DNA from: Schizochytrium sp. TIO01
Taxonomy: Eukaryota; Sar; Bigyra; Thraustochytrida; Thraustochytriidae
Reading direction: 5' to 3'
Length of the DNA: 64,000 nucleotides
Assembly (NCBI GenBank): GCA_004764695.1
Contig: SMSO01000014.1
Location: 2,741,148 to 2,805,147, forward strand
The notes beneath the pieces were generated by a model. That model did no database searches. It had not been told where the DNA came from and saw nothing but the letters and a program-made list of their open reading frames with translations. Positions 8,962 to 40,536 of the stretch are shown in pieces. Position 1 is the first letter of the stretch; every line of letters starts with the position of its first letter. Position numbers and translations under genes: made by a program.

Positions 8962-9255
8962 ACTTAGACCTGTTCGATCAGCGGCAAGGGTGAAGTCAAG
9001 GCACGCACAAGCTTTGCAACGCGAAGCTCTTGCAGAGGAGCCTCTGAAGACCCTGTTCGGTTTTGGTTTGCACAAAGTTTGTGATCAAGTCAATAACGGT
9101 GAGGATCTGACTTTTCAGACAAGGAATCCTCAAGAGCACAAGCTTCAACTAATTTCAACTAACTTTCGCCAGCTTTTTGAAAATATCGAGACGGGACTGG
9201 AAAGGACCGCTCTTCACTAAGGAGCCCGTGTTGTTGTAGCAACACACGAAAGAAA

Positions 9256-18667: not shown

Positions 18668-18703
<36 letters not shown>

Positions 18704-18717
18704 CTACGCCAATTGTA
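15947..18717. other. 2.8-kb intergenic region
   Basis: Divergent spacer between the membrane-repeat gene and VWA8. I see no conserved protein in it; the frames at 16310-16603, 17799-18113 and 18378-19022 (minus) are composed of random-looking sequence. It ends in a (TA)n tract with palindromic flanks, listed separately. Promoters for both genes should lie here. Confidence 0.4.
18660..18707. repeat. (TA)n tract with palindromic flanks next to the VWA8 start
   Basis: GTAGGTAC at 18660-18667 and its exact complement GTACCTAC at 18700-18707 enclose CTC plus about 29 bases of alternating TA. The whole can fold as one hairpin and ends 10 bases before the VWA8 ATG at 18718. If that ATG is used, the hairpin is in the leader; if the start is the later ATG at 18793, it may be promoter DNA. 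Confidence 0.75.
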
Positions 18718-21700: not shown

Positions 21701-24700
21701 CTGATAAGGCTCCGACTCATGTCACAGCAATCCTCAAGTCGCTTCTCGCAGACGGTGAAATGTTGCTTGCCGACGGTCGCCGCCTCGTGCGGCATGGCAC
21801 TCAGCTAACGTCATCTGAAGAACAGACTATATGGGTGCATCCTGACTTCCGGGCAATCATTCTAGCTAATCGTCCGGGATTCCCCTTTCTTGGTAATGAC
21901 TTCTTCCGTGAAATTGGTGATATCTTTAGCTGTTATGTGGTCGATAATCCTGATGAAGAGTCCGAAATGCATCTTTTGCGTAAATATGCGCCTGAAGTAC
22001 CCGAAGATACACTACGTAGGCTCTCGGTAGCTTTCCAAGACCTGCGGGGTCTTGTAGATAGAGGAGTAATCAACTATCCATATAGTACTCGCGAGCTCGT
22101 GAATGTTGTGCGCCATATGCAACTCTTTCCTGATGATGGCATTGCTGCGACATTGAGAAATGTGTTTGACTTTGACCAATATGCTGTGGAGGAGAAAGAA
22201 ATCATTATGAATCTTTTCCAACGTCACGGAATTCCTGTAGGTCTAGACGCCGTTTATAAGGTTACTCTTGGGTCCTTGACCCCTTTACCAGCTGACTTCC
22301 TCACCGAACGTTGGTCCCGCCCGTTTGACCAAGTGAAGGCTGTGCGTTGCTCATTCGAAGTATCCGACGTACCTTGGAAAGCTAACTTGACCACAGATCA
22401 AGCTGAGGCAGGCCAGTTACCCAGTTTCGACTTCCCTTTGTCGCGGGCACGAAAAATGCATATAAAGCTACCTCGTTTTGAAGGCCGCACTGCAGTGTTC
22501 AACGAACAGCTTTTCTCTTTTAGCTTACCTTTGGGTACCCAGATGAGTGGGCCCAATTCAGGAGTCTCTGACATGGTGATTGATTCCCAGGGCGAAATTT
22601 TCGTTACTGCCAATGACTCCTTTCATAGCATGTTCTTGTATGCAATCGCTTCAAACCATCGTTCATATGAAAAATTGGAGCTTGACTTTCCGCATTTCAA
22701 TTTTCGTGGAGAAGTCATACCATCCGTACGTAAACCAGCCCCATCGCGCTGTAGTCTCGCACCGTTACAGGAAGGCAAGCGAATTGCAATGTATGTTCAT
22801 GATGAGCAATTTGTACATGTGCTTGATCTTATGTCTAATACGCAGTCTTTAGTTCATTTACCAATTGACGTTTTCCGCGAAGCTCAGATGTCATATGAGC
22901 CAGGCAAAAGCCCAGGGCTCTGGATAGAACGCCAACGCATTACAATGCTTTCAGCTTTGTCTGAGTCGCACAATGTCCTGATGTTTTATCAGTTCGGGAG
23001 CGCGGCGTTTGTGATTCTTAATCTAGCGATGAATACACTTACTACAGTTCGCTTGCCTATCTTAGTAGATTGTATAGAGGTTCTTTCTCCTACGCAATTT
23101 CTCATTACAGAATGTACCACAGGCCTTGACTCCTCTCTCGAGTATAGTCAGCAAAATGCTTCAACTAAAATTCCACTAAATCGGTTTCACATTCTTCATG
23201 CAGAAGGTGAACGAATCGAATCAGGATTAGCGCATAGTTCAATGTCGGCATCTGACGATGTCGCTGTTTATGAGGACAGCTACCATGAAGACGCTGCCAC
23301 CGCTGTAGCAGAAGATGGCTCGTTGGGAACCCAAGGCTCTTTAGAAAACACCATTAAGTCAATGCGAACAATTCGTTATGACGTTTTTGTCGTTGAAGGT
23401 GTTGTGAGAGAGCACGTACAGCCTGTCTCTAAATCACCTACACGATTGCATGCGGAGCATTCTTATCTTGCAGCATCAACGCTTTCTTCAGAACGACTTC
23501 CTCTTCGCGATGGAAGTGCGTCTGTTGATCGTCGTTGTATGTGTAGTAAAGGTACCCTGGCACAAGTTGTTTCAGGTCTCACTAGCAAATTCGCTTTCAA
23601 TGATGCTGTACTCGCCTCTGAAGGTAAGATCTCTAGCTTCGACGCGCGTGAGTCAGGTGTCGAGGTCCGTTCGTATCTTCGTACAACGACAACATCGACC
23701 ATCAACCCTGCTGATGAAATGCTAGCTGGAAATACCTTCCAGAATGTTTCATCACAATTGTGTACCGTATTTATGCAAAAGCACAGTGATGTAGAGAAAT
23801 CCAAAATGTCTCCTGGATCTCAAGCACCTGGATATCTCGGATATTCCAAAGATGCCGTTCTCGAGGTAGTTGACCTTGAGGGTAAGCAGGTGCGCCATAT
23901 TAGCTTTGCGTTGCCTGACACATCCATTTACGGAGCACAGAGAATGCTTACATTGGGGTCGACATTTGAAGAAGACGAAATTGACGATACTGATGCTCCT
24001 GAAGCTTCACTGCTGATGGAGAACCAGGAGTACTCGCTTTCTACTCAGGAAGACAAAGGACCAGCGGTTGGGGGATTTCCAGAGCGTTTCCGGAGGAAAA
24101 TGCTCTTTATGGTTCCTTTACAAGACGGAAACATTATTGTCATGGACCGTACTGGAGTTGGGCGGGTTTTCGAAATCGACTCTGCACAGCTTGAAAAATC
24201 CCACGAGAATTGGCGTAAGATGATTGGAACCAACAGTCCTGCAAACAACGGCGATCTTGATCTGGAGTATGAAAATATGGAAGAGGTTTCTGATGACTCA
24301 TGGGACGGCGAGTCTACAGATCAGAGTGAAGATGGTGAATATGCTGATGTTGACATTCAGAACATTCAGGAAATCGAGATGGAAGGAGAAATTGAGTTTG
24401 ATGAAAATGGAGAAATGACCGGTGAAGGACAATTAGTAGTTGTGCGAGGTGCAAAAGTAAAGGGCGGCAAGCGCAACGGCAAGCGCGTGCGTATCCGTGG
24501 CTCAGATGACTCTAGTCTTGATGCGCTTGGCCAGGGTGGACGCACTAAGACTCAGTCTCAAAGCAAACGTAAAGGCCGCGCTACGCGCCGAGCTCGAGCT
24601 CGAGCTCGCCCTCGAGGTCCTCGCAACCAACGAAACCAGGGCGGAAATGGCGAAGGACAGGGTGAAGGACAAGGACAGGGTAATGGATCGGGCTCTGGAT

Positions 24701-26106
24701 CTGGCTCTGGCTCTGGCTCTGGCCGAGGCTCCGGCAGCGGAGGTGGCGGTGGCGGCGGAGGCGGAGGCGGCGGAGGTTTGGGTGATGGCCTCACGCTACC
24801 AGAACCCGGGCAAATTCATGGGCCTAGAAAGCTTTCGCAAAGAGCACGCGATGAAGTGAATCTCCGTATGTCTGACCTGAAAGAGATGTTAAAGCTCTTT
24901 CCTCACAATGAGAAGCTAGAAGCGGAGCTTGAGACATTGGAAAAACGCCTTGCTGAAGCAGACGAGGCTGAACTACTTAGCCAAGATAATGATGTTGCAG
25001 AGCGTCTTACACGTGAGCGCCGTCGATTAGAACGTGTACAGCAACAAATTTCGCAGGGCAATGTAGATCCTCGTTTACAAGTCGAAGCTAGCCAGCTGCA
25101 GGAACTCATCAAACATCTTGAAAAACAAATGCAAGAGCTTCTGTCGAAACCAGCTGGTCGCCAATCCTTGGAGGAAACAAGACGTCTTCGCCAAGAAAAC
25201 AACAGCGAAATGGCGCTCGAGGCCAAGGAAGCCGCTAAACGTATTGGAATGGAACGCTGGAACGAGGTCCTGGGTTCCCTTGACATGCAAAAGTACGACA
25301 GTGAGATCTATCTGAGATACAAGGAAGCAGTGCGTCAGGAAATTCATGAACTTCGTACAACGCTGCAAGCGATGGAACGCAAGAAGAACGAGCGGACATG
25401 GGTGAAGAATCGAGATAACGGCGATCTTGATGACACACGGATTGTAGATGCCTTAACGGGCTCTCGAAATATCTATAAGAGACGGATGGATCGCCCACCT
25501 GATCCGTACTCCTTCCTCTCAGTGCCTAAGAACCTTTGCTTTCTCATGGACTGTTCCTCATCAATGACATCGATGGGCTTTGATGGGCGCCTTGAGCGTT
25601 CTCTTGAGGCAGTTTGTATGATCCTTGAGAGTCTCAAGGGATTTGAATGGAAGTTTCGCTATAGTGTTCGAGGTCATAGTGGTAGTACAGACGATCTTGT
25701 GTTTGTTGATCCGCTCAAACCCCCTCCTCCGAATGATGGCGCACGCCTACGTGTGCTTAGGGAAATCAATGCCCACTCCGAGACGTGTGGGTCTGGTGAT
25801 AATACCTTAGAAAGCGCTCGTCTTGCCATAAAGGAACTCGCAGCTCAAGAATCCGACGAATCCTTCCTTGTCCTTTTCTCAGATGCAAACCTAGAACAAT
25901 ATGGTATCGAACCCGCAGATCTCCGGGCATTGCTTGAGCAAGATGCCCGTGTTGCAGTGTTTATTATCTTTATTGGCACTAGTGGTGATCAGGCCCAGCG
26001 TTTAAAGTCAGAACTTCCCGCTGATCGTGCATTTATCACACTTGAAACAAGCGATATCCCTCGTGTTCTCAAACGTATCTTCATGTCTTCCGTACTCTCG
26101 GCGTAA
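18718..26106 (+). CDS. VWA8: VWA8: AAA+ ATPase with C-terminal von Willebrand A domain
   Basis: 2462 residues, a little longer than animal VWA8 (about 1900). Near-identical strings to the family occur in order, for example LTRREVEFVAIS, QRREIRAGSA, LNNLLENREMQLLDGRF and LDPPFRSRFQAFD. There are three AAA+ modules: the first (about residue 150) has a degenerate P-loop GAPGRVKRN, as in the family; the second (about 543) has GKRGSGKSVL; the third (about 927) has GNQGVGKNKL with Walker B LVIDEADKA. A beta-rich middle part (about 1250-1900) follows, then acidic, basic Arg/Lys and Ser-Gly/poly-Gly linkers (about 1880-2025), a coiled coil and a VWA domain with MIDAS DCSSSM at about 2277. VWA8 is a mitochondrial-matrix/peroxisomal ATPase in animals. 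The true start may be an internal ATG at 18793; the basic stretch that follows could serve as presequence. No intron. Confidence 0.95.
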   Translation: MFCRDTKSTPNLEFQYRSGPRRALAMDLGTMEKRGAAAAARRRVRMFMEHLSLDSSARAGGRGAELQLQLQVQSLSAEKLSSEVTISSGGTVRCSIVTQDPKRPDLVPHGFLDRFRNEDDGEISQTCLEGLLFLMKKDKLGQDTFLVGAPGRVKRNLALAYCELTRREVEFVAISQDITVSDLTQRREIRAGSAIFVDGPAVRAAIKGRILILEGVEKAERNILSVLNNLLENREMQLLDGRFLTHPKRFDGLQAAGTLGEENKSQSGNGGDVPLIRVSDTFRVFALGLPVPEYDGSPLDPPFRSRFQAFDVPVSKLLHEDMVAKDPAHSFSKLVALRTSMMAAEAAGLEGLPARMMRRTEFPRELNAVKTLLQYFPQIPIRVLVGFVYPYSSLPWYDPLQGQLFVELLVRQGILPMNVLKADSLASRWAPVSIDPKTGERRKFQEIREEVLRRDNVGMSIHEVNARSRLIGEGYTSTCGYQLKLENGVLSHPDPSFVSISVAVPTDQQNKETTGAFVPIPYHVELLTQMLMIHHSGLDMCLVGKRGSGKSVLVRQFAKAAGRNLLYFPLYKDMTSLDLLQRRSTKPNGDTYWLPSPLVLACLHGGVVVLDGLEQVPPPTLASIQSLLADRMIALPDGTRFHDAKSVEVLRQRGHLRQPENEQEDPVLILPVHPNCRIIGVARPHSLASGASTMSSWLTPEVTAAFLPFLWVRALEESEEAEVIRALVGQALESGSDVSKMLALAHVLRGRSDEEARSIATTITTRQMLRIARRVAKREKDHHEESVATLIRNACLWRFLPSLAQQVLQTELETAGLVEAQDEDAEFEALMYAEPSEIPKITIRQYQSPKPSSFVKTNSDPPTGIELRRQRPVIGELQIGNARTLIHESSNRLLVPQTVFYDNPRQTSILADMLVDFELGEHLLLIGNQGVGKNKLADRFLELLNLPREYIQLDRDTTVHHLTSQPVVEEGIVRYEDSSLVQAASHGYVLVIDEADKAPTHVTAILKSLLADGEMLLADGRRLVRHGTQLTSSEEQTIWVHPDFRAIILANRPGFPFLGNDFFREIGDIFSCYVVDNPDEESEMHLLRKYAPEVPEDTLRRLSVAFQDLRGLVDRGVINYPYSTRELVNVVRHMQLFPDDGIAATLRNVFDFDQYAVEEKEIIMNLFQRHGIPVGLDAVYKVTLGSLTPLPADFLTERWSRPFDQVKAVRCSFEVSDVPWKANLTTDQAEAGQLPSFDFPLSRARKMHIKLPRFEGRTAVFNEQLFSFSLPLGTQMSGPNSGVSDMVIDSQGEIFVTANDSFHSMFLYAIASNHRSYEKLELDFPHFNFRGEVIPSVRKPAPSRCSLAPLQEGKRIAMYVHDEQFVHVLDLMSNTQSLVHLPIDVFREAQMSYEPGKSPGLWIERQRITMLSALSESHNVLMFYQFGSAAFVILNLAMNTLTTVRLPILVDCIEVLSPTQFLITECTTGLDSSLEYSQQNASTKIPLNRFHILHAEGERIESGLAHSSMSASDDVAVYEDSYHEDAATAVAEDGSLGTQGSLENTIKSMRTIRYDVFVVEGVVREHVQPVSKSPTRLHAEHSYLAASTLSSERLPLRDGSASVDRRCMCSKGTLAQVVSGLTSKFAFNDAVLASEGKISSFDARESGVEVRSYLRTTTTSTINPADEMLAGNTFQNVSSQLCTVFMQKHSDVEKSKMSPGSQAPGYLGYSKDAVLEVVDLEGKQVRHISFALPDTSIYGAQRMLTLGSTFEEDEIDDTDAPEASLLMENQEYSLSTQEDKGPAVGGFPERFRRKMLFMVPLQDGNIIVMDRTGVGRVFEIDSAQLEKSHENWRKMIGTNSPANNGDLDLEYENMEEVSDDSWDGESTDQSEDGEYADVDIQNIQEIEMEGEIEFDENGEMTGEGQLVVVRGAKVKGGKRNGKRVRIRGSDDSSLDALGQGGRTKTQSQSKRKGRATRRARARARPRGPRNQRNQGGNGEGQGEGQGQGNGSGSGSGSGSGSGRGSGSGGGGGGGGGGGGGLGDGLTLPEPGQIHGPRKLSQRARDEVNLRMSDLKEMLKLFPHNEKLEAELETLEKRLAEADEAELLSQDNDVAERLTRERRRLERVQQQISQGNVDPRLQVEASQLQELIKHLEKQMQELLSKPAGRQSLEETRRLRQENNSEMALEAKEAAKRIGMERWNEVLGSLDMQKYDSEIYLRYKEAVRQEIHELRTTLQAMERKKNERTWVKNRDNGDLDDTRIVDALTGSRNIYKRRMDRPPDPYSFLSVPKNLCFLMDCSSSMTSMGFDGRLERSLEAVCMILESLKGFEWKFRYSVRGHSGSTDDLVFVDPLKPPPPNDGARLRVLREINAHSETCGSGDNTLESARLAIKELAAQESDESFLVLFSDANLEQYGIEPADLRALLEQDARVAVFIIFIGTSGDQAQRLKSELPADRAFITLETSDIPRVLKRIFMSSVLSA
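24655..24785 (+). repeat. Ser-Gly / poly-Gly coding repeat inside VWA8
   Basis: Imperfect GGCTCT and GGCGGA-type tandem codons encode a Gln/Gly, then Ser-Gly, then about thirteen-Gly linker between the beta-rich region and the coiled coil. On the minus strand it reads as a Pro-rich frame, which is not a gene. Confidence 0.85.
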
Positions 26107-26600: not shown

Positions 26601-27995
26601 TTAAAATTGAAAGTTGCGCAGGCCGCCACCGTATGTCTCGATGACATCCTTGTGCTGTTCGAGAAGCCTTCGTGCTGCCTCGCGAACCACACGCTCTCGG
26701 AACTCGTCCTCGAGCTGCTGACGGGTAGCTTCCTCCTTTTCTTGCTCTTGAGCTTTGTAGTACATGTCGAGGCGATCCTTGCGCTGCTTTTCGACAGCAT
26801 CGCGATGAGCACGCATTTGTGCAGCGCGGCGGCGCGCTTCCTCTCGCTCCTTCTCTGCTTGACGCTCGTACTCGTCGAGCATCTTTTGGCGAAGTTCAAG
26901 CTCTTCGAGTGCCTCTTGTTGTTGAATTGCAGACTTGTAACGCTTCTGTGCTTCGTTTGCAGCAATCATCTCCTGCTTCATCTGGCGAATACGTTCCTTT
27001 CTAGCTGCCTCACGGACACGCTCACGCTGCTCAACCTCCTCCAACGACAAGGTCTCACGAATATCCAGAAGCTCCTCTTCTTGGCGACGAATCTCCTCTT
27101 GCTTAAGGAGCATTTCCTGGTAAATAGCTTCTTGGCGAGCAGCTTCCTCCTCGCGCTTTGCAGCCTCAGCTTCTGCTCTTTCGTGTACAGCTGCTTGGTA
27201 CTCTTGCACGCGGCGTTCGTGTTCCTGCTCTTCCCGAATACGAGCAGCTTTTTCCTGCTCGTGCTGCACCTGATACTTCTGGAGCAGTTCTCGTGTCTCT
27301 TGCTGCTTATTGCGTTTGGACTCCATTGCAGCATGCTCTTCGCGCATGATTTGTTCAATGACAGCCTCGACATTTCGCTTGTCGGTTTCATACTCTTCAG
27401 CGGCCTGCTGGCGATTGATTTGTTTGCGCTCCTGCATTTGCCGCAAGAGATCATCTTTGCTCTTCTGGATCCATTCCTGACGGGATGCTTCTTCGCGAGC
27501 TCGACGCTCTTCCTGTTCCTTCATAAAGTCGAGCATAGCGTGGTCCATTTGTGACTCCTCAACCTTCTTTTTGTACTCAAACTCTGACTTTTCCTTCAGC
27601 TGCAGCGTACGCTCTTTCGAGACGTACGCAAGTTTAAGTTTTCGCTGCAAATCTCGCAGACGTGGGTCACTCTGGATGATGAGTTCCACACGCTTAGCAT
27701 CAGCGTTGTCCTCCTGCTGCTTTTTGCGAAGCTGCTCTGCAAGACGGCCTTCCTGGGCACTTTCACGCTCGCGGATCCGAGCATCAATTTTTGCACGGCG
27801 AATTTCCTCCTCACGGCGTCGCTCCTCCTCGAGTTGCTCAACCTTGTACCGGTAGCGCTGTCCCTCGGCTTTTTGCTGCCATCGGTTCACTTGCTGCACA
27901 CGAGAGTCTTCGTTAAGCACTCTGCAAAGACTTTCGCGGCGAGATTCTGCCTCGCGCTGTGCTACCATGCGTCGCTGGTAAAGACGATCGCCCAT
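26601..27995 (-). CDS. MNS1: MNS1-like ciliary protein (TPH domain)
   Basis: 464 residues, almost entirely Glu/Arg/Gln/Lys-rich alpha-helix of the trichohyalin-plectin-homology (TPH) type; animal MNS1 is about 495. The segment RDLQRKLKLAYVSKERTLQL matches the MNS1 signature (L-x-K-L-x-x-A-Y-x-x-K-E-R) and the tail ARRLLEQHKDVIETYGGGL matches its conserved end. In animals MNS1 is a microtubule inner protein of motile cilia doublets. A homologue implies an axoneme, so the organism should make flagellate cells. ATG at 27995. CFAP53/trichoplein are related TPH proteins and a less likely alternative. Convergent with VWA8. Confidence 0.85.
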   Translation of the reverse strand: MGDRLYQRRMVAQREAESRRESLCRVLNEDSRVQQVNRWQQKAEGQRYRYKVEQLEEERRREEEIRRAKIDARIRERESAQEGRLAEQLRKKQQEDNADAKRVELIIQSDPRLRDLQRKLKLAYVSKERTLQLKEKSEFEYKKKVEESQMDHAMLDFMKEQEERRAREEASRQEWIQKSKDDLLRQMQERKQINRQQAAEEYETDKRNVEAVIEQIMREEHAAMESKRNKQQETRELLQKYQVQHEQEKAARIREEQEHERRVQEYQAAVHERAEAEAAKREEEAARQEAIYQEMLLKQEEIRRQEEELLDIRETLSLEEVEQRERVREAARKERIRQMKQEMIAANEAQKRYKSAIQQQEALEELELRQKMLDEYERQAEKEREEARRRAAQMRAHRDAVEKQRKDRLDMYYKAQEQEKEEATRQQLEDEFRERVVREAARRLLEQHKDVIETYGGGLRNFQF

Positions 27996-29891
27996 AGTGA
28001 ATACTAACTTAGTTGTCTGTCACAAAATGCAAGCTGCGACTCGCTTCAATCGACACCGATACACAATAAGATTGGAGAAACTGCGAGTTCGAAGAAACCT
28101 TCAATAACTTAGATGCTTTGTAGAAGACAAACTATACTTGGCACCAAATTATAGATGGACAAAGAAAGGGAGTGAAGGTGCGGCAAGGGCCGTATGAACA
28201 AAATCTCCACAAACAAAGAGCTGGCCCTTGGCTACGCTGCAAAAATTTTCGAGGAGCGCGAAGGCTCCAGAGCGCGATGGACCAGAAAGTGCGATAAAAT
28301 CGCAACTGCCGCGGAGACCGGCCCCGTTGAATGTAGGGCTAAGCGACGCAGAAGCTAGGGGCTGACAGAGAAATAATCGCGAATCCTTCGCGAGTAGCTA
28401 ATCGAAGCAAGGAGACCCTCTTCGCAGCGACGAGACTTCTTTTTGCGCTGCTCAAGAGCTTTGCCCGGTAGTTCGCAGCTGTTTCTGCTTGTTCACAAAC
28501 TTTCTTGTCTGTTAATATTCAATAGTCTTCGTTACTGCATTATATTGCCTTAGTTCGAGAAAATTTAATATTACTGAAACAAGAGGTGATGTCCGTTGAA
28601 GGCGCTTTTCTTCAACACTCATGGTGAATGAACGCACAAGGAATCATAACGTCAATATGGTGATGGCACTTCTAGGAGCAAGTAGAGTCGAGCCTACGTT
28701 TATGTATTGCTTTCTATTCAGAAGACACGTAGCTTTAATGAGAGTTAGTTACCGCATGACTGAGAATGATATACGGTGGTTAGCATGAGTAACAACAGAG
28801 GTATGACGAGAAATGATTGCCGACGAAGATTGTCAAAAGATGGGACATTTGGTTATAGTGAGTGAAAGTTGGCTTTACAGAACAAAAGAAAGGGAATAAT
28901 TGCCTCAGCATTTTGCTCTTCTGGGAGCAACAGTAGGTACTTATGGAGAATTTATCTCTGGAAACGAATTCAGGACTGCTGCGTATTGGGTAATGTCCTA
29001 AAACAGAATTGAAGGAATTTATTTGCAACAGGCTTCTTCGCTAGGAGAACTGATATCGAAACTCCTTCGAATATTTCATCGAGTATTTGTGATTGTCAAT
29101 CTTCGCTTAGACATGAGTTTGTCAGGGGAAATTGATGGGAGACCCATCAAGTCGAATCTGGTTTTTCTTGAAACCAACGCCAGGGCAAGAATGCAAAACG
29201 AACTTAACACTTGATCTCTCATTTGAACTTGAAAATTTTTCTCCAGCCGGGGTGCAAAGGGGTCGCACAACAAATACCGGTTTCTTCGATGCATCCGCGG
29301 GAACCATTAAGATAGATATAGAGATAGAGGGAGATAATTCGAGGTAGATAATTCGCTGGGTTTTAAAGGTGGTGCTTTCTTCTAATTACTCTAGTTAAAT
29401 TGTGCTAGCATATTTTAATTAAGAAACAGAAATAAAAATAAAATAAAGCGCCTCGTAACTACGAAAGTGAGATTCCTTAGATACCCATTCACACATTGTT
29501 GTAATCACTACCAAGGTAGATTCATAAAGTGACAACATTATCAACTAGAACAGTACCGTGTTCAATAGGCAAGATACTGATTCATCAAAAATAGTTTTGC
29601 GGAGTCAGATTCATGCAACACGGTCAAATATCACAAGTTTCGTTTGTGACTCACAAGAATATGCCAATGCTGAACCGAGTGTAATCAGATATGCTATGAA
29701 TTCTAAGAATGTGCTTTGAACAGGTGGTCGTTGTTCCTATTGTCTTGATATTATCACAGAGACAAATGTGTCCTCGAGCACATCTGAGTTAAAGTGGTAT
29801 AGAAACGACGATTGGAATCTGACCAAAGCAACAAAACAATAGCCGACCTAAATAAGACACTAGTTTCAAGGCAAACCCATTATCCTCTGAT
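27996..29891. other. 1.9-kb intergenic region
   Basis: Between the start of MNS1 and the 3' end of the Gln/His-rich gene. Short frames (for example 29023-29347) look like nothing known. A promoter for MNS1 should lie at the left end. No other structure seen. Confidence 0.4.
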
Positions 29892-31169
29892 TTAAAACAT
29901 TCGCTTCTTTGATCGAGGAGCAGCAGAATCTGTTGTGTTGAGATCGTCAAGACGACGCTTGTAGCGGTCAAGGCGGTCACGGTCCTTATCTGACTTTTGC
30001 ATTAACGCTTCGTATTTAGTTTCGAGCACAGAAATTTCACGTCTTAAGGTCTTGGCTATACGCTCACCAGCCTCAATACGGTCATCTAAAGCAGCAGTCA
30101 GACGTTGAACCTCAGCCTTGAGCTGTTTGTTCTCACGTTCCATCTCTTGTAGAGAGCGACGGGTAGCGTGTAACTCTTTGATCGCACCTTGACCAACATC
30201 AAGAAGTTGAATTGTCGTAGGACCTGACCTGCGCCTATTCAGGGCAGAAGCTAATACGGAATACTGTGATTTAACAATAGACTGGGGATGCATCCCCCCA
30301 TGCATCACGTGATGCTGTGAACCTTGTTGCATTCCATCAATGTTTGCATCCTGAGTTTGGTCACTGCCTTCATGAATGCCACTCCCCCCTGGGTTCCCTT
30401 GTGAATCTCCGTGGCTATGATGTTGCTCATCCATTTCATGACCAACCTGACCAGTACCATCACCAGAAGGGTCATCCTCTGATGGAGGCATCGGCGGAGC
30501 GCCACTTCTCTCTGCGTTAGGATCATCATGTGAGTCCGGTCCCAGCCCACCATATGCAGAAGTCGGGGGAGGAGGTGGCGGTGGATTTCCATGGTGATCA
30601 TTAAGCGACCCATCCTGGTGCATAGTGTCCACACCCCCAGAGCCAGCGAGTTCGGATATATGATCATCTGGCATGGGAATCACTATACGCTCAATCATGT
30701 ATTGGTCTAACATTGATCGCATCTCAGCTTCGGAGATTTCTGGCACTGTTATTTCATAATCTTTGAGATCTTTCGTAAAAAGATTTTCAGGTGGTGTAAC
30801 ATTTGTTGCAGGTTTCCATCGCACAAGACGTTTACCATCGAATCGAGAGCTTGAAAAATGAGCTTTACTCAGACGTTTGTCTTTACCTTTTTGCACTTCG
30901 TCCTCAGAAATGCCTAGTGCTGCAAGCCATCTAGTTCTGGAAAAGGTATTAAGCTCCCTCTGATTTTTAGCATCTTTTGATGGGAGTTCCACAAAGCCTC
31001 CTCTAATATCACCAAGCTGTGAGAAAACACTAGTCAAAACTTTACACATGTCCCTGTCACACAGACAACGTTTTTTTAAACGCGGGACCTTTGACGTAAC
31101 TAGAGCGGAGGGTTGCGAGCTGGTTGCTCCCATGGGTAATGGAGGAGGTGGAGGGGGCATCTGCTGGTG

Positions 31170-31200
<31 letters not shown>

Positions 31201-32033
31201 TGGTGTTGTTGTTGCTGGTGTTGCTGTTGCTGTTGCTGGTGTTGCTGTTGCTGGTGTCGTTGTTGCTGCTCCTGCTGCTGCTCCTGCTGCTGCTCCTGAT
31301 CTTGCTGTTGTTGTTGCTGCTGCTGCTGCTCCCGCTGCTGATTCTCTTCTTCATCACGTGGGTTCTGCTGGTCTTGATGTTCCTGATGTTCCTGATGTTC
31401 CTGCCCAACCTGCTGACCCGGCTGTTCTTGTTGATCTTGTTGTTCGTGCTGACTGTGGTGGTCCTGTGAATCGTGCTGGTTGTGCTGATCGAGCTGGTCT
31501 TGCTGAACTTGCGGATCTTGCTGTTCCTGCTGATCATGTTGGTCGTGTTGGTCGTGCTGATCCTGTTGATCGTGCCGTTCTTGTTGGTCTTGTTGGTCTT
31601 GTTGATCCTGCTGAACATGTTGCTCATGATGACCATGTTGATCAAGATCATCCTGCAAATCTTGAATTGGTTGTTGTTGAAGATGATGTTGGTGATGTTG
31701 CTGCTCGTCCTCCCGCTGCTGCTCTAATTGCTCAACCTCCTCCTGTGCTTGGTGCCCCTGCTGCTCTTGCTCAATTTGAATCTGTTGTTCATGAACATCT
31801 TCTTCATCTCCATCATTCTGCTGACCATCATCAAGACTCTGTTGCTCTACTTGGTGTTCCTCGTGGTCTTGAACAACACTATTGTCACCCGTAGCTTGCG
31901 CTTGTTCTGACATATCGTTCATGTGCTCCATATTCTCCACATTTTCAACATCCTCGGGATCCACAGAAGCTTGCACAGACGATGCGGCTGGATCGAGATT
32001 GCCAATATCGACGTTCCCAGAAGGATCTGCCAT
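29892..32033 (-). CDS. Gln/His-rich protein with THAP-like domain and C-terminal coiled coil
   Basis: 713 residues, ATG at 32033. Residues 1-290 are Gln/His/Asp-rich low complexity with a polyglutamine tract at about 230-290 encoded by CTG/TTG repeats, followed by a Pro stretch. Residues about 318-415 look like a THAP zinc-finger: CLCDRDMC, an Arg-Trp pair (RWLAAL), KAHFSSSRFDGKRL and the closing NVTPPENLF, which parallels the AVPTIF-type end of THAP domains. The C-x2-H part reads SKAH, so one zinc Cys is replaced by Ser. A Gly/Pro/Asp-rich linker follows, then a leucine-heptad coiled coil (about 600-700) and a basic end with RSKKRMF that could be a nuclear signal. A DNA-binding, dimeric transcription regulator is the likeliest role; this is inference. 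Confidence 0.75.
31160..31335 (-). repeat. CAG/CAA-type coding repeat (polyglutamine)
   Basis: Imperfect tandem CTG/TTG triplets on the plus strand encode Gln runs broken by His in the Gln/His-rich protein. The same DNA yields spurious Leu-rich, Val/Ala-rich and Cys-rich frames on the plus strand. Confidence 0.9.
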
Positions 32034-33749
32034 TCTATTTCTGTGCCGGATGGTTAATATTGCGTGAAGAAGATGTGACCAGAAAGGAAAATCAAGGGCG
32101 CAAAGGCGTCGTTGGAGGCCAGCTCCTGCCGCACAACCTTACTCTGGCACAGGACTCCAGGACCGGCGCAGCTCTCTAGAGCTCGTTCCTTGTATGGTAC
32201 GGGAGCCGGTTTCGTGGCGTGCTCCCTGCGAGAGAGACTCGCGTCTGGGGCCACGCCGTGCGCAAGGCAGTCTCGGAATTGGCTTGGCAAAAAAGAAAGA
32301 AACAAAGAACGAACTGTAGTAGGGACCTAGACTAAACTGGAGATGCGATTTGTTCCGTAAGTTCCTGATGATCCAAATGCTCCTAATTTAGTTAGATACC
32401 TACGCTTATTTATGATATGTGATACATTCTCCTTGTATAAAACGAGATGGTGCTCTGATATCTGAGCATTCGTTTCAGGAAATCTATGTCTGTATTTAGT
32501 TCAAATATATACCAAACAGAAGAATGTTTAGGAAGTTTATTGATGTGAAGCTGACGGTGATTAAGGTAGGATGCTGTAATTTGCAGCAAGGAACGCTACT
32601 CCAAAGAGTTCGCACAGAAGAATAACAAGCTTCTTGAGTTCTGTATCAATGTTGACAAAGCCCGCATTACTTAAATACTTTCTACAGAGTTCTCATATAC
32701 CTCCAAATTTATCAAAAGGTTTCCATTGCTGACGTAAGATACGAGGTTAGATGTACTACTTGATAACGAAAAACAGAAGACTAAAGCTCACATAATTCAT
32801 TCTTCATCGGGTATATGAATGTATCAGCCCCAATCTTAGGACTTGAAAGCTCCTAACCTTTGCAGTAGAAAATCACAAAGATACAGTTATGCAAGGGAAG
32901 TGCATACGTTGGATGAGATTGATAATAATGGCATGAATATACTATTGGCTTGGTAGAAACGAAAAAGGACAACCCGTATTCCAGAGGGAAAATAAGTATT
33001 CTTTTCGCCTTTGTATATTCGATTCCTATCTTAACTCTCAGTTCCAAGTTTCCATCGATGGTGCTAAAACGACTAGCACCAATTCATATGTTTTACTTTT
33101 TGAATATTTTCTTTTCACGACTCGCATCCACAAAGCATAGATAGCTAGATTATAAGGTAAATGTACAGCTTAACCCATCGGATTGGTTCGCACTACCTAA
33201 CGAGTCTCGAGGCGTAATCATATGTTTGACAAGTAAACCATCTTTGGATCATTGGGTTCTTTGTCATGGAATCAACTTAAGACATGCTATCGTTTCTATT
33301 CTTTGCTAAAAATGGTTCTTGTAACTAATAAAATTAATGAAGCATTACAGATGGATCAAAAAACGTAAAAGTTCGATAACTTATATTTCGATGTGATTGT
33401 TTCATATTAACCATATATTATGTTTAGTTAGATTATTAATAAGAAGTAGAGGTTAGATAAGAAAATGGGGAGGCCGAGGAACCGACAAGCTCCAAACACT
33501 GCAAGTGGAGCAAACCTCGAATACAAACCAGCAAAGTTCTTTCACCATCTCATTGGAAACACGCTAGTCGCTTACTTGATGCTTCAGGTGCTGACGCGTG
33601 ATTTGCGGGGGAGTATTGAAGTAATATACAGCTACTGTCTAACCTAACCTAACCTAACCTAACCAAGCCCTCATGTCCGACACATCCTGTGTATCGGACT
33701 GACATCATACATTCATTCCTGCCTGTATCCAGACCTGAAACCCCAATAA
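32034..33749. other. 1.7-kb intergenic region before the IS607-type element
   Basis: AT-rich, with promoter DNA of the Gln/His-rich gene at the left. No protein is recognised. A five-copy CTAAC tandem lies near the right end, about 110 bases before the recombinase frame opens; listed separately. Confidence 0.4.
33639..33664. repeat. (CTAAC)5, TTAGG-type tandem repeat
   Basis: Five head-to-tail 5-bp units plus a partial one, equal to TTAGG on the minus strand. TTAGG is the arthropod-type telomere unit, but 26 bases in an internal position is better called a microsatellite. It lies just left of the IS607-type element. Confidence 0.85.
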
Positions 33750-34457
33750 CTCATATATCATCCTCTTTCTCTTTCTCCTGAGTTCGTCATCCTTGTCAGA
33801 CTACCTCTCCACGCTTCACAGCTCAGGCTACTCTGCAATAGGAAGTTTGGGGTCTCAGCAAGCGCCCTTCGGGGCTGGGCCGACGGCGGACGCGTGCGCT
33901 TCGCGCGCTTCCCCGGAGGCAAGCGCATCTATGCCAGCGACGATGTTGAGCGCATCTTTGATTGCGGTTCCACCGGCCGCGAGCAACGCAGCTCTGGATG
34001 TACCGTTATCTACGCCAGAGTGTCCTCGGTCAAGCAAAAGGAGGACCTCGAACGCCAGGTTGGCGATCTCCAGCGCGCCTACCCAGATGCTTCCGCCGTC
34101 TACAAAGACATCGGTAGCGGGGTCAATTTCAAACGCCAAGGTCTGTGCTCCCTACTGGACGCCTGTGACCGCGGCGGAATCGGCCAAGTTGTGGTCATGC
34201 ACCGCGACCGACTTGCGCGAATCGCAGTCGACCTCTTGGAACACCTTTTCGAAAGATAAAATGTCAAACTCGTGGTACACGGCCAAGATGCACATGCCGG
34301 AGACTCAGACACCTTCACCAAAGACCTCCTCGGAATCATCACCGTCTTTGTGGCATCGCATCACGGAAAACGAGCAGCGCAAAATAGACGGCGACGACGC
34401 AGCGAGGAAGAAGCGAGCTCGCACGAAGGCGCGCAAGACCATCAAGAAAGAATATAA
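33750..34457 (+). pseudogene. IS607-type serine recombinase (TnpA), interrupted
   Basis: A MerR-type helix-turn-helix (about 33840-33960) reads FGVSASALRGWADGG then FPGGKRIYASDDVERIF. The small serine recombinase domain follows, with YARVSSVKQKEDLERQ (nucleophile Ser in ARVSS) and VVMHRDRLAR. This order, HTH before catalytic domain, is that of IS607 TnpA. A TAA at 34257-34259 interrupts the frame directly after LLEHLFER, yet the same frame continues with a typical TnpA C-terminus, NVKLVVHGQDAHAG and DLLGIITVFVASHHGKR, to a stop at 34457. No in-frame ATG exists between the upstream stop (33747) and the HTH; GTG 33894 lies inside the HTH. So both the start and the middle are broken. GC-rich compared with flanking DNA, which suggests foreign origin. 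The 3' part overlaps the nuclease gene. Confidence 0.85.
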
Positions 34458-35637
34458 CCTTGTCCGTACCAGAAAGGTTAGGGTATATCCTACTAAAGAT
34501 CAACGTACACAGTTGCTTAAATGGTTTGGTGTCACTAGAAGAGCCTACAATATTGGCGTTGCGTTTCACCGAGACATGGCGAAGGGCGAGGAAGAAGCCA
34601 TCAGATTGCATCAAGAAGCGTGCATCAAAAAGGATCGTAAGACGAAGCAGGTTTTGGTAGATGAAGATGGGAATCCAAAAACACATGGGGCACTTGGTGG
34701 AGAACTGAAGGCCGTCCGATATAAAGAAAAGAATGCTGCTCCTAAATGGGTTCTCGAGGTCCCACAGGCTATCCGTGATTCCGGGATTCTGGATTTCTTC
34801 AAGGCTATTAACTCGGGACGAGCCAAAAACGAAGAACTCGCTGTACAAAAGAAAGTCCATGAGCAATCTTTTTATAAGTTTCGGACCAAGCGTGATGAAT
34901 CACAGATTTTCGAAGTGAATGCACGTACCTGGAATGCGAAGAAATCAAAGACCTCCAACTTTCTAAAAGAATTCCGAATACGTAAAGAAAAGTTCCCCGA
35001 CCAGATTTCGAACGCCATGCGTGTGCAAATGAATCGCCTTGGGCATGTCTACTTCTGCTTCTTACGAGAAGAAAAAAAGCGTCCAATGGACCAGGCACCC
35101 AAGGCGCACCATGGTGTCATTGCTCTAGACCCGGGTGTTCGCTCGTTTCAGACGATGTATGACGCCGATGGCCGCGCCATTGAATGGGGCACAGGGAAAG
35201 ATTTTAGAACCATATTCTATCTCTGTCGCCGCGTTGATAAGATCCAAAGCAGCATTGATAAAAAGAAAACTGCATCCAGTGATAAAGACAATTTCAACAC
35301 CCCCTTGAAGCGCGCCTTCTATCGCGCCCAACTCAAGATCAAGAACAAGATCACTGAGATTCACCGCAAGCTCGCGCTTTGGCTTTGTGAAAACTATCGT
35401 GTTATTCTCCTGCCCAAATTCGAAACCTCTAAGATGAGCAGGAGGATGGAGCGACGGATCTCCAAGAAGTCTATTCGAATGATGTGTCGTTGGTCCCATT
35501 TTGGGTTCCGCCAGGCTCTCATTCATAAGGCTGAGATGTTCCCGTGGTGCAAGCTTGTTCTTTGCCAAGAAAGTTACACTTCCAAAACATGCAATGAGTG
35601 TGGGAGAAATAAGGATAGTGTTAGACTAGTGTACTAG
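34261..35637 (+). pseudogene. Fanzor2/TnpB-type RNA-guided nuclease, C-terminally truncated
   Basis: 458 codons from ATG 34261, which starts one base after the premature stop of the recombinase; later ATGs (34288, 34294) are also possible. Domains: basic N-terminus; the OrfB helix-turn-helix RKVRVYPTKDQRTQLLKWFG and TRRAYNIGVAFHRD; a central WED/REC-like part; RuvC-I GVIALDPGVRSF (Asp near residue 290); RuvC-II ILLPKFETSKM (Glu near 387); and the first half of the zinc ribbon SYTSKTCNECGRN (about 440-450). It stops ten residues later, so the second CxxC and the RuvC-III Asp (D-x-N-A-A-R-N region) are missing. Known TnpB/Fanzor proteins need that Asp for DNA cleavage. Association with an IS607 recombinase is typical of Fanzor2. 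Either the 3' end has been lost or an unseen splice supplies it. Confidence 0.88.
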
Positions 35638-36103: not shown

Positions 36104-37534
36104 ATGTTTGCCAAGGGAAAGCAACAAGAGGCTACAGGAGAGAGGGGTCAGTACAAATGGTTCGATCGTCTACATCGTTCTTGCCTTGGTTCCGCTAAAG
36201 TTGACTCGAAGGAATTCCTTGAGAAGGCCCTCAACATATGCGAGGAAATCAAAGATGCGCTGTCTAAGGAGGAGGGTGATGACAAACACGCCCAACTATG
36301 TGACTCAATCAGATCTTTCTTCGCAGTCACTGGCATGACTGTTGCAAATCTTGATGTTCTCGACTTTAAAAGCTTTGAAAGCATCATTGAGTCGTTCAGA
36401 CTCGTTGTGATTGCATATTATGAGATTGAAGACCCTCGGAGAGCTCGTGCCATTGCATTACTCGGCTTGGAGGTTTCCAAAGGGCTTCAAACTCGAAACC
36501 GAAACTTAAAATCAGATAGCGTGGAACATTATTTCCAGCTTTACGAAGCCATATTTAAGAATATCAGTAGTGAAGACCACTTGGCTTATATGGAGCTGGC
36601 GTACCAAATGAAGAAAGATCTAGGGCTACATAAATTGAATCAAGACTCAGTTAAGGTGATTCTTCCATCAAAACCTCATTTATTCTTGAAAGTGAATATA
36701 TTACATTCTCTTTGCAAACTACGTTTGCCCACTGCACGTTGGGGATCAATTCCTATGGACTCTGAACACGTGAATATATTTTTTCTTCACGCATGTGCAC
36801 TTCTTCTGGTTTCGTGGCTCCTAAACTCACGGAGTATTTTACTGATGACATTATTTGATGTTTTACTCCTATACAAATCCGCTCGCCAAGAGTTTTCTCG
36901 TGTAGAATCCGTAACTCCTTCGGAGCAGCAGGCAATCAAGCGTGAAAAAATGAAAACATTCGAGAAGAGCGAAGCTGATTATTTAAAAATGGACTTAACT
37001 AGAGCCCAAGCAGACCTCAAAGATCTTGAAAAGCAGCTAGAGAATTTACACAAAGAGCTCGAATATTCGAAGCTTGAAACAACCAAACAGGAGCATGTAG
37101 CAGCAGCCCTTCGTAAAGAAATGGGTCTTTCTGAAAGGAGCAACGCCAAATTTAAGAAGACTTACCAAGCCAGAATAGAGGAACTTGAGAATACGATAGA
37201 GGCCAACATGCAGGAAATTGAACACTTCAAAGAATTAGATAAGGTCCGCTGTGAAGAAGAGAAGGTAAAGAAGATAAAGGCGGATGCTGAAGTGTTAGAT
37301 CGCCTGAAGAAGATTGATGAAGCGGCAGTCAGAGGCTGGGAAAACTTTGTGGACTTCATCAATAAGGAGTATTGTGTACCTCAGCAGCGAGATAAGGCAT
37401 TAGACAGAAGAAAGGTAATTTTGCGCGCACTTAGAGCGTATCATCCTGACAAAGCCTGGAACGTCCCAAGCCTGTCAGGGGTGGACGCGAGCATTTGGCT
37501 AAGAATTGCAAAACATTTAAATAGTTTCAAATGA
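36104..37534 (+). CDS. Membrane-anchored coiled-coil protein with C-terminal J-domain-like module
   Basis: 476 residues from ATG 36104. The N-terminal 220 residues are helical and may be TPR-like. A hydrophobic stretch at about 225-255 (FFLHACALLLVSWLL and LLMTLFDVLLLY) suggests one or two membrane helices. A long coiled coil (about 270-400) follows. The last 75 residues form a small module: GWENFVDFINKEY, then VILRALRAYHPDK and WLRIAKHLNSF. The HPD-like core at the helix end resembles the loop of DnaJ J-domains, but it lies at the C-terminus and the rest does not match a standard J-domain. The next gene downstream ends with the same module. Function is not known; Hsp70 contact is inference. 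Confidence 0.75.
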   Translation: MFAKGKQQEATGERGQYKWFDRLHRSCLGSAKVDSKEFLEKALNICEEIKDALSKEEGDDKHAQLCDSIRSFFAVTGMTVANLDVLDFKSFESIIESFRLVVIAYYEIEDPRRARAIALLGLEVSKGLQTRNRNLKSDSVEHYFQLYEAIFKNISSEDHLAYMELAYQMKKDLGLHKLNQDSVKVILPSKPHLFLKVNILHSLCKLRLPTARWGSIPMDSEHVNIFFLHACALLLVSWLLNSRSILLMTLFDVLLLYKSARQEFSRVESVTPSEQQAIKREKMKTFEKSEADYLKMDLTRAQADLKDLEKQLENLHKELEYSKLETTKQEHVAAALRKEMGLSERSNAKFKKTYQARIEELENTIEANMQEIEHFKELDKVRCEEEKVKKIKADAEVLDRLKKIDEAAVRGWENFVDFINKEYCVPQQRDKALDRRKVILRALRAYHPDKAWNVPSLSGVDASIWLRIAKHLNSFK

Positions 37535-38751
37535 AATGATCTGCACCTTCCTTTTGTTTTTCTTTGAAAAGTTGACTGAGACAATGTAACAAACTTGAAA
37601 ATAAATAAGAGTCAAAAAATAAAAGAGGGGCAACTCCACTGCAGCTAATTATTCATTACTATTTCTCCTTCTAATACTAGGTATTTATATATTGGCCTGC
37701 ACGTTTTGGAAAGAAAAAGAAAACATTATTATTATTATTATTATTATTAAATTATTTTTTAATCACATGCTGGAAATTAAGGACAGTACTCAGCGAGAGA
37801 TGGTGTATGCGTCACACTTTTAATCAATTGTACCTTGAGATCTCAAAGCAGCCCGAAATACATTCATCACGGTAGAATCTGATTTTTGATTTCGAATGGC
37901 AAAACTCTAGTGGGGGCTGCTGGCACGTCTTTTTATACTATCGCAATAAGTAGCTTGAAAATATTGGAAATGACACTGATTGAGAAACATTCAGTCTTTA
38001 TTTTTAAAAAATAGCCTTTATAAAATATGTGGGGCTACATATATATTTCACATTAGGAAATTTAGGTTTTAATTTTAAATAAAAAATAAAAAAATCAATA
38101 CTACATATATATATATATACATATAATAATAAATATAAGAACACTTTTTTATATTAAAACTTTTTTAAAAAATTGAAGTGTTAAATCCATGTGTTGAGAG
38201 CGCTCCCAAGAGTTCAGAGAGCTTTACCATTAGTACTTGGTTACTCGTAGAGTCAATCGATGTGTTTGGTTTCAGAAGGCCTATATATCATGACGATTCA
38301 TCAGTCGAGGGATGCATTCTCTAGAGTTTCTCACTGCACGAGACTCTTAAGCACGCGCCAGAACGTTTTTGAAATATTCTCTGCTGTAGTATGAAAGCTC
38401 AAGTATGTCGAAGAAACATCACTCTGCAGTAGAGAGTTTAGTTTAATGTAGAGATTAACAAGTGCACTGGCTTGATTATCTTGCCCCGTGCCACTCCCAT
38501 TAGATAGAATTCAGTACCAGAAACCCTTGCACTTAGATAAAAGCTCAAAGCAAAAGTACATCACTCATATAAGCTTTTGCTTCTTTGTATTTTTGAATTG
38601 TAAGAATTTCTCAATCAGTCTATGTGTGCATTATTTGGCACAAATAATACTTCTCCTTTCCATTGGGTTAGGAGTTTATAGTAAAGGTATTTCCGTGAGG
38701 AGCGCCAAACTCCGCGTCTACAAACCCTCAACCCTTGGAAACAAACAAATC
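37535..38751. other. 1.2-kb AT-rich spacer between the J-like pair
   Basis: Contains (ATT)n at 37725-37749, a very AT-rich block at 38000-38170 with a (TA)n run near 38105-38120, and the leader of the next gene. The open frame of the next gene extends back to 38488 but without an ATG before 38752. Confidence 0.45.
37725..37749. repeat. (ATT)n microsatellite
   Basis: About eight tandem ATT units in the spacer. Confidence 0.85.
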
Positions 38752-40536
38752 ATGGGTGGCACACCATCCAGTAACGCAGGGGTAACAAAGTCCGGCCTAA
38801 GCGTCAGAGAAGTCTACTCGAAGGCATTCTCAATAGAGGATGATCCGGAAATTATATTTGCTGAGCTGAGAAAGGTCATCGAAGGGAATGTATCTACTTG
38901 TTGGACACCAAGTTTACGTGGCTATTGTTTGCTACTTGCGGGAAGACTTGAGAACCATCTCCAAGGCCAACGATTGAAATCGAATCTAAGCTCCCGGCGC
39001 GCTCAACTTTATACATTTGCCGCAATTTACTTCAAGGCCCTAGCTGAAGAAAAGAGTGATAAACCATCTCGTGCAACGGAGCTGATGAAGCTAGCTTCAA
39101 GCAAACTTTCTCAAGTGCATGAATCTTATGTCTTCAGAAAACTCAACCTTGATGGCCTCAACAATCGAGAAGATTTAACTTCTCGAATACAGAATCTAAG
39201 TATTTATACAGCAAGAATCGCTTATGCTCGTAGGGTACAGGTTCAACAATTATCTTCGTTTTTGCAAGAGGTAGAAACCTACTTAGAAAATTCGAATGGC
39301 GAGAATGGTAGTGTAAGCCTTCATAAACTTCGCTCATACGAGGACGTCTTTCGTAAATTGACGAAAATCGGCTCAAGCCGCAGCTTAGCAAAGCGTGCTG
39401 CATATATACGGCTCAATCTCTGCGCCCAAATCATATCTCATTCTAGTGAGAACAATTCTGAATCAGATGTCTATCTGAGCATTTGCCTCCATGTTGCGAG
39501 CATACTAGCAGACCTGAATGATTGGTTGGAAAGCTGGGAAGTTGACGAGTTTGTACTGTCTCCAGATCATGTACCTCAACATTCTGTTAATGTGGCAGAG
39601 TTTGAGATGATATCATATAGACTCGCCCCCTTTTTGAGTATTGCGCAGCTCAACAGCGCTCTGAGGCACACTTCGAACTGGGTGGTGTACTCACAAATTT
39701 GTCTCATGCTTGCGCGCAAACATTTGCATGCAATGGTGGAGATTCGCGAGAACCAAGGGGAGATAGGGAAAATTCTGCAACATGCAGAGCACGGTCTTAT
39801 GCTTCTCCGGCAAATTGAGGTTGACAGTAGTCTGTCAACTATTCGTGAAGAACTCCAGATAGATATAGATACGAACTTGGAATTTGCAAGGGGGCATTCT
39901 GCCCTTGACAACGCAACACGTGCTCTCAACACGGCTTTGTTCGATTCTGAAGAGCTCAATGTTGAATTGATCTGGGACGCGATCGATCAGTTCCGCAATG
40001 TACCAGAACACACCTTTGAGCTACACCCTGCTGTAGCGGGAAACATTTCTATCGCATTTAGAGCGCTAGGAATTTTTGAAAAGGCACACAAGAATGCATA
40101 CGCGGCCACGCAACTGGCGCAAGCTTGTGCTCCAAGGACATTTAATCACGAAACCTGGTATCAGGAGTGTTTGAAGATTCTTGAAGAGCGCGATCGCAGA
40201 AATAGAGAGCAAGAAGCAGAAGAGGCCCGTAAGCAAGCAAAGCTTGATGAGCCCATTTTAAAGGAACTACAACCTCAGCTTGAGGCTATAGAAAAGGCAG
40301 CACGGGCTTCATGGTCCGACTTGATTCGACATATCTATGAGCATCACCCAGTGCCAAATCGTAAGCAACCTGAGGACTTGTCAACAGAGAGTTGGAAGGT
40401 AGCATTGCGTGCAGCTCTTCTTGCATATCACCCGGACAAAGTGCCTCCGAACAGTCCGCGTAAAGTACAACTCTTGCATAACAACATTACTCGTCACCTC
40501 ACTGAGAAATACAACAAGTTGAAAGATTTGGACTAA
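38752..40536 (+). CDS. Helical-repeat protein with C-terminal J-domain-like module, possible N-myristoylation
   Basis: 594 residues from ATG 38752, which sits in AATCATGG and begins MGGTPSSNAG, fitting the N-myristoylation pattern (Gly2, Ser6). The frame is open another 88 codons upstream, but with no ATG. The body (about 30-500) is all helical with TPR/SEL1-like spacing, for example LRGYCLLLAGRLENHL and ALGIFEKAHKNAYAATQLAQ. A charged coiled coil at about 490-520 leads to the last 85 residues, WSDLIRHIYEHHPVP, WKVALRAALLAYHPDK and NNITRHLTEKYNKL, clearly the same module as in the upstream gene. The pair looks like an ancient tandem duplication with very different N-terminal parts. Role unknown; lipid anchor plus J-like end would suit a membrane-bound chaperone adaptor, which is inference. 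Confidence 0.75.
   Translation: MGGTPSSNAGVTKSGLSVREVYSKAFSIEDDPEIIFAELRKVIEGNVSTCWTPSLRGYCLLLAGRLENHLQGQRLKSNLSSRRAQLYTFAAIYFKALAEEKSDKPSRATELMKLASSKLSQVHESYVFRKLNLDGLNNREDLTSRIQNLSIYTARIAYARRVQVQQLSSFLQEVETYLENSNGENGSVSLHKLRSYEDVFRKLTKIGSSRSLAKRAAYIRLNLCAQIISHSSENNSESDVYLSICLHVASILADLNDWLESWEVDEFVLSPDHVPQHSVNVAEFEMISYRLAPFLSIAQLNSALRHTSNWVVYSQICLMLARKHLHAMVEIRENQGEIGKILQHAEHGLMLLRQIEVDSSLSTIREELQIDIDTNLEFARGHSALDNATRALNTALFDSEELNVELIWDAIDQFRNVPEHTFELHPAVAGNISIAFRALGIFEKAHKNAYAATQLAQACAPRTFNHETWYQECLKILEERDRRNREQEAEEARKQAKLDEPILKELQPQLEAIEKAARASWSDLIRHIYEHHPVPNRKQPEDLSTESWKVALRAALLAYHPDKVPPNSPRKVQLLHNNITRHLTEKYNKLKDLD

Follow-up and report, generated by a model that had tools for sequence, protein, structure and literature searches.

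Among the systems described so far, ACa-1, ACa-2 and ISvMimi come close to the locus reported here in that they likewise combine a TnpA-like serine recombinase with a Fanzor2 nuclease in a eukaryotic setting, and the passages concerned describe eukaryotic and giant-virus IS607-Fanzor2 elements as having neither TIRs nor TSDs (PMC3627910). The cyanobacterial "pro-Fanzor" IS607 elements, treated in passages of PMC10711439, have the same DPG motif and alternative Glu, an IS607 TnpA and a deep +1 overlap with tnpA; they are bacterial, and the family analysed herein branches separately from them. The best solved relative, the mimivirus TnpB-like protein L79 (PDB ID: 9b0l), is viral and was compared by its protein sequence. 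Fanzor1, a eukaryotic RNA-guided nuclease of the same superfamily (passages of PMC10711439), is carried by other transposon types, whereas the nuclease described herein is IS607-borne.

In a stretch of 64,000 nucleotides from Schizochytrium sp. TIO01 (hereafter referred to as the window), positions 33357-35603 were found to constitute an IS607-type element that encodes a serine recombinase TnpA and a Fanzor2 nuclease and is devoid of its 3' end. The best explanation, to which we assign a probability of roughly 0.88, is that this copy, truncated at its 3' end and with a dead transposase, belongs to an IS607-Fanzor2 transposon family that was recently active in a eukaryotic nuclear genome and that would move and persist by the mechanism proposed below. 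The evidence in the sequence consists of two overlapping genes, conserved ends, a foldable right-end RNA region directly abutting the flank, a left target motif common to the copies, the occurrence of both young and old copies, and a subfamily with a dead transposase whose members occupy different sites. In contrast to ACa-1, ACa-2 and ISvMimi as they appear in the passages of PMC3627910, the present family is multicopy, nuclear and recently expanding, 8 of the 20 copies compared retain both genes, and it has defined ends, a predicted guide-RNA fold and a target motif.

The limits of the element were set where the alignment between copies in unrelated flanks ends, which placed the left limit at 33357, about 400 bp to the left of the start given in the preliminary description of this DNA. 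The features of this locus given in the present paragraph lie on the forward strand. The element is preceded by the target-like CAGATGG plus 2 nt (33348-33356), the predicted TAM side, and its tnpA starts at 33465 with the frame ending at 34457. The gene was revealed to be broken twice, namely by a 294-bp insertion (33547-33840) that splits the HTH into two halves (33465-33546 and from 33841 on) and by a TAA stop in frame (34257-34259) within the catalytic part (about 34005-34407, limits transferred from the intact protein). The nuclease frame, +1 relative to tnpA, is open from stop to stop at 33739-35637, although the sequence right of 35603 is unrelated to the element. From the downstream ATG, the nuclease (34261-35603) comprises the N-terminal part, RuvC-I, which reads LDPGVRS and has its DPG at 35128-35136 (the D being encoded by 35128-35130), the alternative Glu of RuvC-II (35569-35571) and the first CxxC of the zinc finger (35590-35601). 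With the element sequence breaking off at 35603, the copy has lost RuvC-III, the second zinc-finger half and the right end with the guide RNA; the frame being open from 33739 up to the junction, the loss in the nuclease is confined to the 3' end. Scanning the window with a covariance model of the right end gave no hit at E ≤ 0.01. Neither Rfam matches nor tRNA genes were found in the window.

Profile searches supported these assignments. TnpA matched the Resolvase domain (PF00239, 4.5e-16) and transpos_IS607 (NF033518, 1.4e-28), and the nuclease matched guided_TnpB (NF040570, 2.1e-19), the latter two under the curated cut-offs in this broken copy. In one copy with an intact TnpA, NF033518 scored 142.9 against a cut-off of 110, and an intact nuclease scored 94.3 with guided_TnpB, just below the cut-off of 100; the complete zinc finger and the RD of RuvC-III, absent from the window copy, are present in the intact copies. 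The five solved relatives listed for TnpA were IS607-type or related serine recombinases, one of them labelled only as a putative DNA binding protein. The preliminary description, which had read an IS607-type HTH and serine recombinase followed by a TnpB/Fanzor nuclease with RuvC-I and RuvC-II in a copy damaged in several places, was thus borne out, the RuvC-II acid being the alternative Glu.

The 294-bp insertion contains (TAACC)5. Sequences resembling it were found elsewhere in the genome (L026, 6695-6870; L031, 4633-4711; 77% and 89% identical, respectively), and they end at the same point. Together with the TAACC units, this gives the insert the appearance of a member of a separate repeat family that inserted into tnpA. 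An intron was also considered and rejected by eye, because removal between its GT..AG pair would leave tnpA out of frame.

As to its class, the nuclease is, judging from its residues and its carrier, a Fanzor2 rather than a Fanzor1 or an ordinary TnpB. DPG together with the alternative Glu are given as Fanzor fingerprints in section 23 of PMC10711439, and an IS607 TnpA is encoded in the same element. The alternative Glu precedes the first Cys of the zinc finger by six residues (QESYTSKTC). DPG and this Glu are present in the window copy and in L019; in a 10-row alignment the Glu was invariant, and the P of DPG was present in 9 of the 10 rows. At what we take to be the usual TnpB Glu site, the window protein reads LLPKF, and the same presumed site is an invariant Pro in the 10-row alignment. 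A 29-row nuclease profile matched 21 distinct sequences of solved structure at E ≤ 0.001, the best being mimivirus L79 (3.6e-61), with a match that spans the NSWY segment through RuvC-III. A search of viral contigs with the single protein yielded no relative, while a motif pattern did find relatives there. In a midpoint-rooted tree of 57 rows (30 bacterial, 19 viral, 4 host and 4 outgroup, without a named eukaryotic Fanzor2), the 53 rows of the DPG-type clade were separated from the 4 DLG outgroup rows with a support of 100/100; the host rows clustered together (100/99), and the remaining 49 non-outgroup rows made up a group (98/97) to which the host rows did not belong, host rows and outgroup both being flagged by the program as long branches. 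Bacterial and viral-contig rows were interleaved. The placement of the host nuclease within the DPG TnpB/Fanzor2 clade and apart from the DLG TnpB, together with the eukaryotic neighbour genes, was in good agreement with the suggestion of the preliminary description that this is a Fanzor2 in a eukaryotic host, for which it had proposed such a tree.

In the host copies the nuclease frame stays open over tnpA, and we assessed how general this arrangement is. The loci comprised 52 from a pattern scan of viral contigs, the best 80 of 393 confirmed from a bacterial profile scan (75 cyanobacterial, going by the record titles), 41 from a viral profile scan (some on the same contigs as the pattern-scan loci), and L019, namely 173 bacterial or viral loci and one host locus. 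With tnpA frames restricted to 480-1000 nt and the nuclease match required to be complete, 83 of these 174 loci remained, and 59 after removal of near-duplicates; 40 were dropped for want of a tnpA or nuclease match, 50 for a tnpA frame outside 480-1000 nt, and 1 for running off the contig. All 49 de-duplicated DPG elements whose tnpA frame is full-length, be they bacterial, viral or from the host, have a nuclease frame that runs over tnpA in phase +1 for 350 nt or more. Deep overlaps were likewise observed in the DCG (3/3) and DGG (2/2) elements, as opposed to neither of the 2 DLG elements, where the overlaps measure 23-32 nt. Three elements were left unread by the script; two of these have a deep overlap, in contrast to L071 (DLG). 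DLG elements have the +1 phase in common with the others, but not the depth of overlap. Of the 50 loci dropped for a short or long tnpA, 47 are in phase +1 and 3 are not (including L165 and L148); their overlap is below 350 nt in 41, most likely because these tnpA frames are short or broken. Another set of filters gave phase +1 in 46 of 48 rows.

Such an open frame might alternatively be a by-product of codon usage in tnpA, with the nuclease really starting at the downstream ATG (34261), and several observations favour this: the ATG is kept in all 14 Fanzor-intact copies (only these 14 were compared), the non-overlapping controls amount to only three kinds of DLG-type element, a loose motif search detected NSWF-like and PYW-like segments in only 28 and 36 of the 49 DPG elements, and the host family alone gives a modest signal, with shuffle p values of 0.0045-0.0075 and variable tnpA sites spread evenly over the codon positions (9/8/9 in 11 copies), a distribution that near-neutral change could also produce. 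Against it, the open run was longer than in synonymous-codon shuffles at p ≤ 0.05 in 47 of the 49 DPG elements, the remaining two (L051 and L066) giving 0.056 each in the final test and 0.041 and 0.0445 in an earlier run. Furthermore, tnpA differed less at its third positions than the nuclease-only part did in all 17 related pairs compared, which were chosen by hand, partly share members and have similar protein identity in both parts (factor 0.30-0.94, median 0.58). The values for tnpA and the nuclease-only part were 0.17 and 0.42 in L076-L094, 0.28 and 0.55 in L122-L142, and 0.16 and 0.17 in the weakest pair, L101-L180. Divided into fifths of tnpA, the difference in 12 pairs was 0.30, 0.24, 0.16, 0.20 and 0.13 (nuclease-only 0.37), so that the extension probably begins within tnpA, at some distance from its start. 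Conserved fourfold codons were compared in 54 elements: the mean frequency of the commonest third base was 0.59 over 27 columns of tnpA, as opposed to 0.42 over 35 columns of the nuclease-only part (p = 4.6e-5), and at one tnpA Val codon GTG is used by all 39 elements (of the 54) that have GTN there. By our reading, the +1 translation of that codon supplies the W of NSW(F/Y), which recurs in the host family (NSWY at 34267-34278 in the window, within the tnpA overlap; a PYW motif of the N-terminal extension lies at 34150-34158, in the +1 frame within tnpA) and in mimivirus L79, whose deposited chain includes NSWY. Considering these points, we regard the codon-usage explanation as unlikely.

The overlap and the constrained third positions of tnpA thus suggest a dual-coded nuclease N-terminus. 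We consider it likely that Fanzor2 and pro-Fanzor nucleases of cyanobacteria, viruses and eukaryotes carry an N-terminal extension of about 100-170 residues, encoded over tnpA in its +1 frame and maintained by selection; transposase and nuclease would therefore be genetically welded, and the disordered N-termini of Fanzor2 proteins, reported as segments of 96 and 61 aa in two of them (passages of PMC10432273), would descend from the overlap. If true, this would shift the protein starts of Fanzor2 and explain the linkage of transposase and nuclease in this lineage. Passages of PMC9956272 state that IS607 ORFs may overlap and give no extent, and the main text of PMC10711439 contains no word starting with "overlap". 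In the open-licence literature surveyed, mostly by listings, we recognised neither a description of this family nor one of a tnpA/Fanzor2 overlap under selection.

The preliminary description had proposed searching the whole genome for intact relatives and aligning the copies. The nuclease query gave 107 matches in its own genome (64.06 Mb, 37 contigs), of which 16, including the window copy, span at least 429 of the 449 query residues without an internal stop and lie on 9 contigs. We compared 20 copies, namely 19 retrieved with their flanks (L009-L027) and that of the window, and retrieved a further 20 older places. The 232-aa TnpA is kept in nine copies (L010, L014, L015, L017, L019-L022 and L024), and the nuclease frame is intact in 14 of 20, measuring 491-512 aa from the common ATG and extending 20 residues further in L017; both genes are kept in L010, L014, L015, L017 and L019-L022. 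The nuclease is truncated or shifted in six copies (window and L023-L027), and L018 is 5'-truncated, its left part missing. The closest pair, L020-L021, differs by 0.36%; over 2,250 bp, the window copy and L009 share 99.6% identity. The older places matched the nuclease in 20 of 20 and also TnpA in 17 of 20, and models of the left and right ends matched 18 and 19 of them at E ≤ 1. Because the decayed places match both genes and ends while the young copies are near-identical, the family is, as judged from its copies, a long resident of this genome that has been active recently. Some older decayed copies adjoin young ones, head to head in L014 (2424-2736) and L021 (5499-6631) and in the same orientation in L023 (2211-2867).

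The pattern of damage bears on how the copies spread. Among the 20 copies, the 294-bp insertion is present only in those of the window, L009, L011 and L013, being identical in three and 99.7% identical in L013; these four also share the same tnpA stop, yet align with one another only within the element. L012 and L016 have that stop without the insertion. Since four copies with the same dead TnpA sit in unrelated flanks, TnpA probably acted in trans, the simplest reading being that the dead copies were moved by the TnpA of intact ones; gene conversion could account for part of the shared damage.

The preliminary description had also called the window copy a fossil or a domesticated remnant, of which the first part stands, since the copy is broken. 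A domesticated Fanzor-like host gene, whose nuclease was kept for a host role after the transposase had died, would fit the intact nuclease frames of L009, L011, L013, L012 and L016 despite their broken TnpA. These copies, however, lie at different sites and are young, the nearest copy being 1.0-2.1% away, and in place of a single fixed locus there are many near-identical copies at unrelated sites. The window copy itself has neither RuvC-III nor the guide-RNA end, and we regard domestication as improbable. Bacterial or viral contamination, the former named in the preliminary description as a finding that would refute it, or a recent viral insertion carrying the element might be suggested by the relatives, which are cyanobacterial, other bacterial and viral-contig IS607 elements (the own genome being the sole eukaryotic collection searched), but is highly improbable given that the host copies form their own long-branched tree group, that 17 of 20 decayed places match both genes and so show long residence, that the near full-length matches lie on nine long contigs, and that the window copy is inside a 7.46-Mb contig beside eukaryotic genes for a kinesin (359-3064), a kinase with EF hands (9181-10893), a giant dynein-type AAA protein (18664-26103) and a TPH-domain protein (26604-28019).

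The copy alignment proposed in the preliminary description also defined the ends of the IS607-Fanzor2 family and a predicted RNA fold at the right end. The right end reads CTAAGAG in 17 of 18 copies (L009-L026) and CTAGGAG in L015, and is lost in L027; the base following it is A or T in 18 of 18 (P = 2e-5 from the flank composition). The two ends are unlike each other by eye, and no TSD was seen by eye in the copies. On the left, CAG at the fixed positions -7/-6, which was tested first, occurred in 1 of 18 flanks (P = 0.45), and CAG anywhere in the last 9 nt, a count used afterwards, in 13 of 18 (background 0.11; P = 1.8e-9, post hoc). As a consensus, the left flanks give CAGTAT(A/G) and then A or T; CAGTAT is exact in only 5 of the 18, and CAGTA is present in 8. 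Because near-identical copies differ there, we take the CAGTAT(A/G)-like motif to be target rather than element, and the predicted TAM side.

The last 120 nt of the element gave RNA fold z values of -6.7 (L009), -4.4 (L019) and -4.0 (L020). The proposed layout consists of a 13-bp stem-loop, a short stem-loop, a third stem-loop and a pseudoknot, and is similar to the three stems and pseudoknot of the IS607 guide RNA given in passages of PMC10711439. In the predicted pseudoknot, the loop TCTTAG of the short stem-loop can pair with the 3' CTAAGA, and these pairs hardly vary. Single-sequence folds differ around the layout: in L009 the loop is paired straight to the 3' end, the minimum-energy fold of L020 and a few others is longer-range and not three-stem, and L014 and L019 miss part of the short stem. 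Across 15 distinct right ends (from 19), 97.8% of the cells pair. Covariation on these 15 young right ends was not significant, with 79 of 500 shuffles as high. With the old copies added (35 matches, 32 distinct rows, the alignment being fitted to the structure and the pseudoknot left out), two-sided changes were found in 13 of 30 pairs, amounting to 39 cells against a shuffled mean of 12.7, a value reached by 0 of 500 shuffles, and slid controls gave at most 12. Rfam yielded no match to the L009 right end.

Following known IS607 biology, the serine recombinase would excise the element as a circle and insert it next to a CAGTAT(A/G)-like site. With its 3' end against the flank, the right-end RNA would then guide Fanzor2 to the same sequence at the emptied site, which would carry the left-flank motif as TAM, and, by analogy with TnpB, repair of the cut would copy the element back and so favour its retention. 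Since its TnpA is interrupted and its nuclease has neither RuvC-III nor the guide RNA, the window copy can presumably neither transpose nor cut and is, as far as its reading frames tell, a dead end for transposition and guided cutting. A nuclear genome with near-identical two-gene IS607-Fanzor2 copies would offer a direct testing ground for the native role of Fanzor in transposon upkeep, and the copies yield predictions of the guide scaffold, the guide position and a TAM side resembling CAGTAT(A/G).

Around the element, a 713-aa open frame on the reverse strand (29892-32033) contains long Gln-rich repeats and has no Pfam match. Two neighbouring open frames on the other side (36104-37534 and 38488-40536), without a convincing Pfam match, share similar terminal segments (AYHPDK...) and are perhaps related genes.
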